A DNA stretch of 64,000 nucleotides from Haemonchus contortus (lineage: Eukaryota > Nematoda > Chromadorea > Rhabditida > Trichostrongylidae): contig LS997562.1 of the NCBI GenBank assembly GCA_000469685.2, positions 1,716,326-1,780,325 on the forward strand, written 5' to 3'. The notes beneath the pieces are model-generated. The model was not told where the DNA came from, did no database searches, and saw only the letters and a list, made by a program, of their open reading frames with translations. The translations under genes were made by a program, and so were the position numbers. Shown piece after piece: positions 37,525 through 38,238 of the stretch. Within the stretch, counting starts at the first letter, position 1. Each line of letters starts with the position of its first letter.

Positions 37525-38238
37525 TCACTGGCACTTGTAACCTTGGCATTTTCTGTTGTGAACACGAGCACATTCACCATTAGCAAGTCCATGACATTTC
37601 CTACAGTATTCTCTGCAGGATTTCCATAAAGGACCAGTGTTCTTCTGAAGACTGTCACTTGTTATCTAAGTATTTCGTATCATTGGTAGTGGAGATGGAA
37701 AGAATTAGAGGAAGTGCAGGACAGGAGCTTCCCTCGCAGTTGGCTTGCGAAATTTGGTCAATGCGCGCGGCGATCTGATCTTACAATTAGGGGTACCGCC
37801 GGCCGTCTTACACTTAGGAGCTCTCGTACAGACTTCACCTTCCTCCATCCTCACTACCCATAAAACGACATTTTACAATCGCGGCGAGGCGCCGGGCTTT
37901 TGCAGAGGAATGTGGCTTCGTCGCTCTCTAATATTAGTGTGCTCATCCGTTCAGTTACGCATCTTCCCGCGATCAGATTTTTTTCGCAAGTACAGATTGT
38001 ATAATACAAAAATCATTTTGTCTGTGGCATACTGTTCAGCAGCTATTTGAGCTTAGACCTCGGCTTTCTAGTTCTACATGGGCCGTCGTTCCCATCTCTG
38101 ACCTCACAGCTTTTCCACTGGTTCATGTGAACTGACCTCGGCTTGTGTATTGCAGCGACTCCAACTCTCGAAACAACCACATTCCACCATTGTTGTCATT
38201 AGAAATACAATCAGTAGAGCCATCAGAAAGCGACCCAT
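37525..38238 (-). CDS. macin-family secreted antimicrobial peptide
   Basis: Two exons, 38238-38137 and 37644-37525, joined in phase 0 (GAG|gtcagt ... tcttcag|AAG), encode 73 residues. Residues 1-20 are a signal peptide; cleavage after Cys20 would leave a mature N-terminus GCFESWSRC, like leech theromacin (GCFEDWSRC). The mature part has eight cysteines at 22, 29, 44, 48, 51, 59, 67, 72 with spacing C-x6-C-x14-C-x3-C-x2-C-x7-C-x7-C-x4-C. It contains the macin hallmark TGPLWKSC and is very basic, ending KCQGYKCQ. Macins are disulfide-rich antibacterial, and in leech neuro-regenerative, peptides described in annelids, molluscs and Hydra. CTCTTTAG 11 bases before the ATG would serve as a trans-splice acceptor. 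I infer a secreted antibacterial role; the target is unknown. Confidence 0.85.

Follow-up and report, generated by a model that had tools for sequence, protein, structure and literature searches.

A gene for a macin-type peptide lies on the minus strand of a stretch of 64,000 nucleotides from the nematode Haemonchus contortus (assembly GCA_000469685.2, contig LS997562.1, here C1; C1:1716326-1780325), which is referred to as the window. The gene, named Hc1 here, was read from the genomic sequence as three exons (Table 1), its splicing being deduced from this sequence together with a deposited model. Exon 3 completes the Gln codon that is begun by the terminal CA of exon 2 and is included in the deposited H. 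contortus protein A0A7I4XSX9 (UniProt, named 'Venom protein'), which is identical to Hc1 over all 95 residues and was the sole candidate in each of two single-sequence protein searches with Hc1 (1/1 in both). The deposited model has seven residues, LLFRDQI, in front of the first Met, and these cross the acceptor-like CTCTTTAG (window 38239-38259, minus strand); judged from the genomic letters, its 5′ end is probably wrong. The site just upstream of the ATG could instead be a trans-splice acceptor or the end of an intron in the 5′ untranslated region.

Table 1. Coordinates of the Hc1 gene parts (window positions) and of a related relic elsewhere on C1.
Feature	Coordinates	Strand	Remarks
Exon 1, coding part	38137..38238	-	ATG, hydrophobic start, mature N-terminus GCFESWSRC, C1 and C2; identical to deposited protein P0003
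Intron 1, 492 bp, phase 0, GTCAGT...TCTTCAG	37645..38136	-	Same intron position and phase (0) in Hc2
Exon 2, coding part	37529..37644	-	C3-C8; last two bases CA, phase 2; read from the sequence
Intron 2, 380 bp, GTGAGT...TTTTTTAG	37149..37528	-	Position, phase and GTGAGT donor common to Hc2
Exon 3, coding part	37079..37148	-	TAG stop, C9 and C10; deposited protein, own-genome match C1:1753407-1753475
Ten bases between acceptor-like CTCTTTAG and ATG	38239..38248	-	Putative, inferred from sequence
Decayed tandem macin relic	C1:6983600-6984917 (L005:958-2275)	-	1.2 kb from Hc2

The three-exon translation gives a precursor of 95 residues. An earlier, sequence-only reading of the window had described a signal peptide, the motifs FESWSRC and TGPLWKSC and an intron of 492 bp. 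We recovered a hydrophobic, signal-peptide-like start in the translation of exon 1, both motifs in the protein and the intron with GT-AG ends. The same reading counted eight cysteines, and its spacing of the first eight (6,14,3,2,7,7,4) is correct, while the total is not, as exon 3 adds C9 and C10. Signal cleavage would be expected near residue 20, from the match to the start Gly of mature leech theromacin, and the mature peptide from Gly21 would comprise 75 residues with a computed isoelectric point of 8.75, a charge of about +4.8 and ten cysteines spaced 6,14,3,2,7,7,4,1,16. In the AlphaFold model, residues 3-23 of the deposited protein form a helix. The model also shows a helix and then two strands, the order of the cysteine-stabilised alpha-beta (CS-alpha-beta) fold, at a predicted local distance difference test score (pLDDT) of 75.6.

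Membership in the macin family, which had been proposed from the first two exons, is borne out by profile and sequence searches. The 73-residue model of these exons matched Pfam Macin (PF14865, curated cut-off 27 bits) with 33.5 bits (E 6.2e-8), and the full 95-residue protein with 29.0 bits over positions 1-59 of the 60-position profile; the protein of a second H. contortus gene, Hc2, passes the cut-off as well. Theromacin (2LN8; E 3.3e-9) and hydramacin-1 (2K35; E 4.1e-6) were the top two in a PDB sequence search, and a profile of nematode clade V macins retrieved the same two (2.3e-12 and 7.9e-7) ahead of an unrelated entry at 0.12. Fold searches gave weak matches; the absence of 2LN8 and 2K35 from their lists shows nothing. 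Hc1 contains the C-x6-C-x14-C-x3-C core with WSRC and TG-x-x-W as well as the extra cysteine pair of theromacin-type macins, C5 and C10, and, only when exon 3 is included, the CxC motif (C8-x-C9) which is needed for the CS-alpha-beta bonds.

An alignment search kept 37 proteins from 47 candidates, and every one of them carried PF14865. They comprise 19 proteins from 11 genera which we take to belong to nematode clade V, one from Plectus and 17 others from leeches, molluscs, Hydra, a coral, a protist record and unnamed metagenomes. Among the intact clade V rows, in which Hc2 and its partial record P0007 are both counted, ten cysteines and the C5/C10 pair are present in 17/17, and the spacing 6,14,3,2,7,7,5,1,16 is shared by 16, Hc1 alone differing with 4 for 5. 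Three aberrant clade V models (P0018, P0020, P0021) have C5 and no CxC, and C10 could not be scored in them. Across the remaining rows, P0022-P0039 (n=18), C10 accompanies C5 in all five that have C5, and a later cysteine was found in two of the 13 without it.

The genome contains a paralogue, Hc2, at C1:6986118-6987406, 5.2 Mb from Hc1. Its coding exons measure 102, 119 and 70 bases (102, 116 and 70 in Hc1), and its introns of 542 and 456 bp have phases 0 and 2 and the same CA/GTGAGT junction. The Hc2 protein (P0007 in nr, named 'theromacin') has ten cysteines and 42% identity to Hc1, and it keeps the clade V motifs TPQT, CSGGYQCQC and CKLGL, which are lost in Hc1. Close to Hc2 lies a tandem relic (Table 1) in which, as read by eye, WSRC has become ASRC, at least two cysteines are lost and the exon 2 donor is gone. 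Searches of the 283.4-Mb assembly (7 contigs), in which the best candidates were scored and distant copies could escape, point to two intact macin genes and this one relic. With Hc1 as query, 4/7 candidates matched at E<=0.001; Hc2 matched 8/9 at E<=1, and the Oesophagostomum protein P0010 13/14 at E<=1, five of which fall in Hc1, Hc2 or the relic, and the other eight (E 0.003 to 0.16) all contain stop codons. The Pfam Macin profile matched 4/13 candidates at E<=1, none above the cut-off exon by exon. Two of its sub-cut-off matches, C2:44486219 (E 0.10) and C4:43396419 (E 0.92), were taken as chance, and no macin-like exon set was seen by eye at these 3-kb loci in the open stretches of the matching strand, read in its three frames and filtered by length and cysteines. 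We observed tubulin exons, one starting MREIVHVQAGQCGNQIG, at C1 about 7.0276-7.0310 Mb (L022:2598-6022), a distance of some 40 kb from Hc2; they are presumably those of beta-tubulin isotype 1, the benzimidazole locus. Population sweeps at this tubulin locus could drag the macin pair along.

We calculated a 34-row tree from 33 of the 37 homologues and Hc2, leaving out P0007 (same gene as Hc2) and the aberrant P0018, P0020 and P0021, which have no CxC; in every row no more than six residues were kept ahead of WSRC, and P0035 was shortened to 75 residues. In this tree of 80 columns, with an arbitrary root and a bootstrap that had not settled, a branch with support 90/84 separates the 16 clade V rows from all others. 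Together with the 19 clade V proteins among the 37 homologues, this leaves the earlier suggestion of an acquired gene unsupported. An 18-row tree did not settle the sister of Hc1 (Hc1 with Oesophagostomum P0010, support 28/0), and the approximately unbiased test (p-AU) gave 0.04 when Hc1 was held with Hc2 and 0.08 when it was held inside the trichostrongyle group. Because the long Hc1 branch (3.77 in this tree) distorts support and p-AU values, we leave the Hc1/Hc2 duplication undated. Two homologues deserve mention on their own. P0039 from Plectus sambesii, the one protein of the 37 that comes from a nematode outside clade V, has C5 and its last cysteine at a different spacing (2,2,6,8,1,0), and in the 34-row tree it groups with mollusc and cnidarian types, apart from clade V. 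P0024 (eukprot m51a1_g1476) is a macin with ten cysteines from a protist record whose tag we take to denote Mastigamoeba; it could come from contamination, or else represent a macin that is very old or was transferred.

Hc1 is an outlier of the clade V macin family. Alignment A3 excludes P0007, P0018, P0020, P0021 and, for its odd N-terminus, P0013. Of the 34 columns which are invariant among its 14 other rows, Hc1 differs at 8 (N25S, T30N, P31T, T33A, S68Q, a lost G beside S68Q, T90L and L95F in Hc1 numbering), whereas each of these 14 rows, when the same test was applied without Hc1, shows 0 or 1 departure in 34-35 columns. Its end branch in the 34-row tree, for which the bootstrap caveat applies, measures 1.3 changes per column versus a median of 0.18. 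Hc1 retains the ten cysteines, WSRC, TG and the LWK Trp. This pattern suggests either that selection has kept the fold while the surface changed, or that constraint on a spare copy has been relaxed.

Nematode macins as such are not new, and the idea of an under-described nematode branch has been superseded. The accessible part of a 2023 study (PMC10506718) reports putative macins in nematode clades 6/C and 9/V and names H. contortus; in clade 9/V they occur in every species examined save Caenorhabditis, Dictyocaulus viviparus and both Angiostrongylus. That part describes ten cysteines and no functional test, credits Gerdol 2012 with an earlier report of nematode macins and lists in its Table 2, among excretory-secretory products, a single CS-alpha-beta protein of H. 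contortus, HCON_00003550. In the literature searched, as far as its text was accessible, we found neither a functional test nor activity data for a nematode macin, and no mention of the outlier status of Hc1. The gene itself was already known, and its divergence is the sole mildly new point.

Taken together, Hc1 is very probably a three-exon nuclear gene of H. contortus for a secreted, ten-cysteine, theromacin-type antimicrobial macin, the divergent one of two intact copies. The precursor would be secreted after cleavage of its signal, and the basic mature peptide would fold as a CS-alpha-beta domain. By analogy with theromacin, whose bonds are given in the accessible text of PMC5116183 as C2-C6, C3-C8, C4-C9, C1-C7 and C5-C10 (ten-cysteine numbering), the same five bonds can be predicted for Hc1. 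As leech macins are described to do, the mature peptide would then clump bacteria and make their membranes permeable; this antimicrobial function we infer from family membership.

The strong divergence of Hc1 leaves some room, though clearly the smaller share, for a peptide that is degenerating or neofunctionalised and uses the macin scaffold without being mainly an antibiotic any longer, for example by acting on host tissue or nerve cells. Its departures from otherwise invariant columns and its long end branch would fit such a change, and another macin copy in the same genome has already decayed. Plain decay is unlikely, however, because the reading frame, the GT-AG ends of both introns, WSRC, TG-x-x-W and the ten cysteines are all intact. 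Slightly more doubtful is the specific version in which Hc1 is a fast-evolving, possibly neofunctionalised theromacin of a blood-feeding gut parasite, where abomasal microbes or host tissue could be the new target in place of general defence.

It is quite improbable that the clade V macin type was gained horizontally from another animal. The clustering of the Plectus macin with mollusc and cnidarian types instead of clade V would be in line with such a gain, and leech macins are single-exon according to the part of PMC12109416 that was accessible, hence gene structures differ. However, the tree concerned has the limits given above, and ancient paralogy accounts for the same pattern. Any transfer into clade V would moreover be old, since the type is spread over 11 genera and Hc1 has two introns.

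Even less credible is the gene of two exons and eight cysteines that stops at 37525, which the sequence-only reading had favoured and which we had to give up. An in-frame TGA does follow the exon 2 reading frame, and eight-cysteine macins are known in Hydra and molluscs. Furthermore, there is no AATAAA within 2000 bases past exon 3 of Hc1, unlike in Hc2, which has one 55 bases past its stop, and these two observations count against our three-exon gene; we give them little weight because variant polyadenylation signals are common in nematodes. The TGA (37527-37525) sits within the GTGAGT splice donor, and exon 3 is part of both the deposited protein and Hc2. A two-exon product would keep C1-C8 and have no CxC, and its C4 and C5 would stay unpaired, because theromacin pairs them with C9 and C10, which are encoded by exon 3. 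The CxC is kept in 11/11 non-nematode eight-cysteine rows, and the sole exception is P0018, a partial Ostertagia model taken as aberrant. Contamination or a bacterial gene can practically be dismissed, as the sequence-only reading had already argued from the first intron: Hc1 lies inside a 45.8-Mb contig and has two GT-AG introns, and homologues occur in many nematodes of clade V.

Elsewhere in the window, no Rfam match at gathering scores was found, and Pfam gave nothing in the 7 other open reading frames tried from the 91 listed. A glycine-rich open reading frame ending QPTVVKKTVIINRG (window 56931-57212, minus strand), for which Pfam returned nothing at E 0.1, could represent one exon of a gene for a secreted protein rich in glycine. 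Text resembling transfer RNA (tRNA) boxes, GGTGGTGTAGTGGCAAGCG...GGGTACGAATCCCGGC, was seen at L006 about 2895-3000, with similar reading-frame text at window 12093-12377, and looks like a putative tRNA-derived short repeat.

Overall, macins are an established ten-cysteine family of clade V nematodes, and Hc1 is already in the databases. The corrected three-exon structure matters for peptide synthesis, because a two-exon version would be expected to lack partners for C4 and C5. With one conserved (Hc2) and one strongly diverged macin (Hc1), H. contortus offers a simple test case for functional divergence, given that our literature search returned no activity data for nematode macins.

Among the known systems, leech macins differ from the nematode ones in that activity has been reported for the leech peptides only (PMC6780910, as far as accessible). 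Leech theromacin (2LN8) resembles Hc1 in the GCFE.WSRC...TG.LW.SC...YC..C start and in its ten cysteines including the C5/C10 pair, but has a C7-C8 loop of 9 versus 4 residues in Hc1 and a different tail. Hydramacin-1 (2K35) shares the WSRC / TG.LWKSC core and membership of the CS-alpha-beta family with Hc1, whereas it has eight cysteines and is without the C5/C10 pair.
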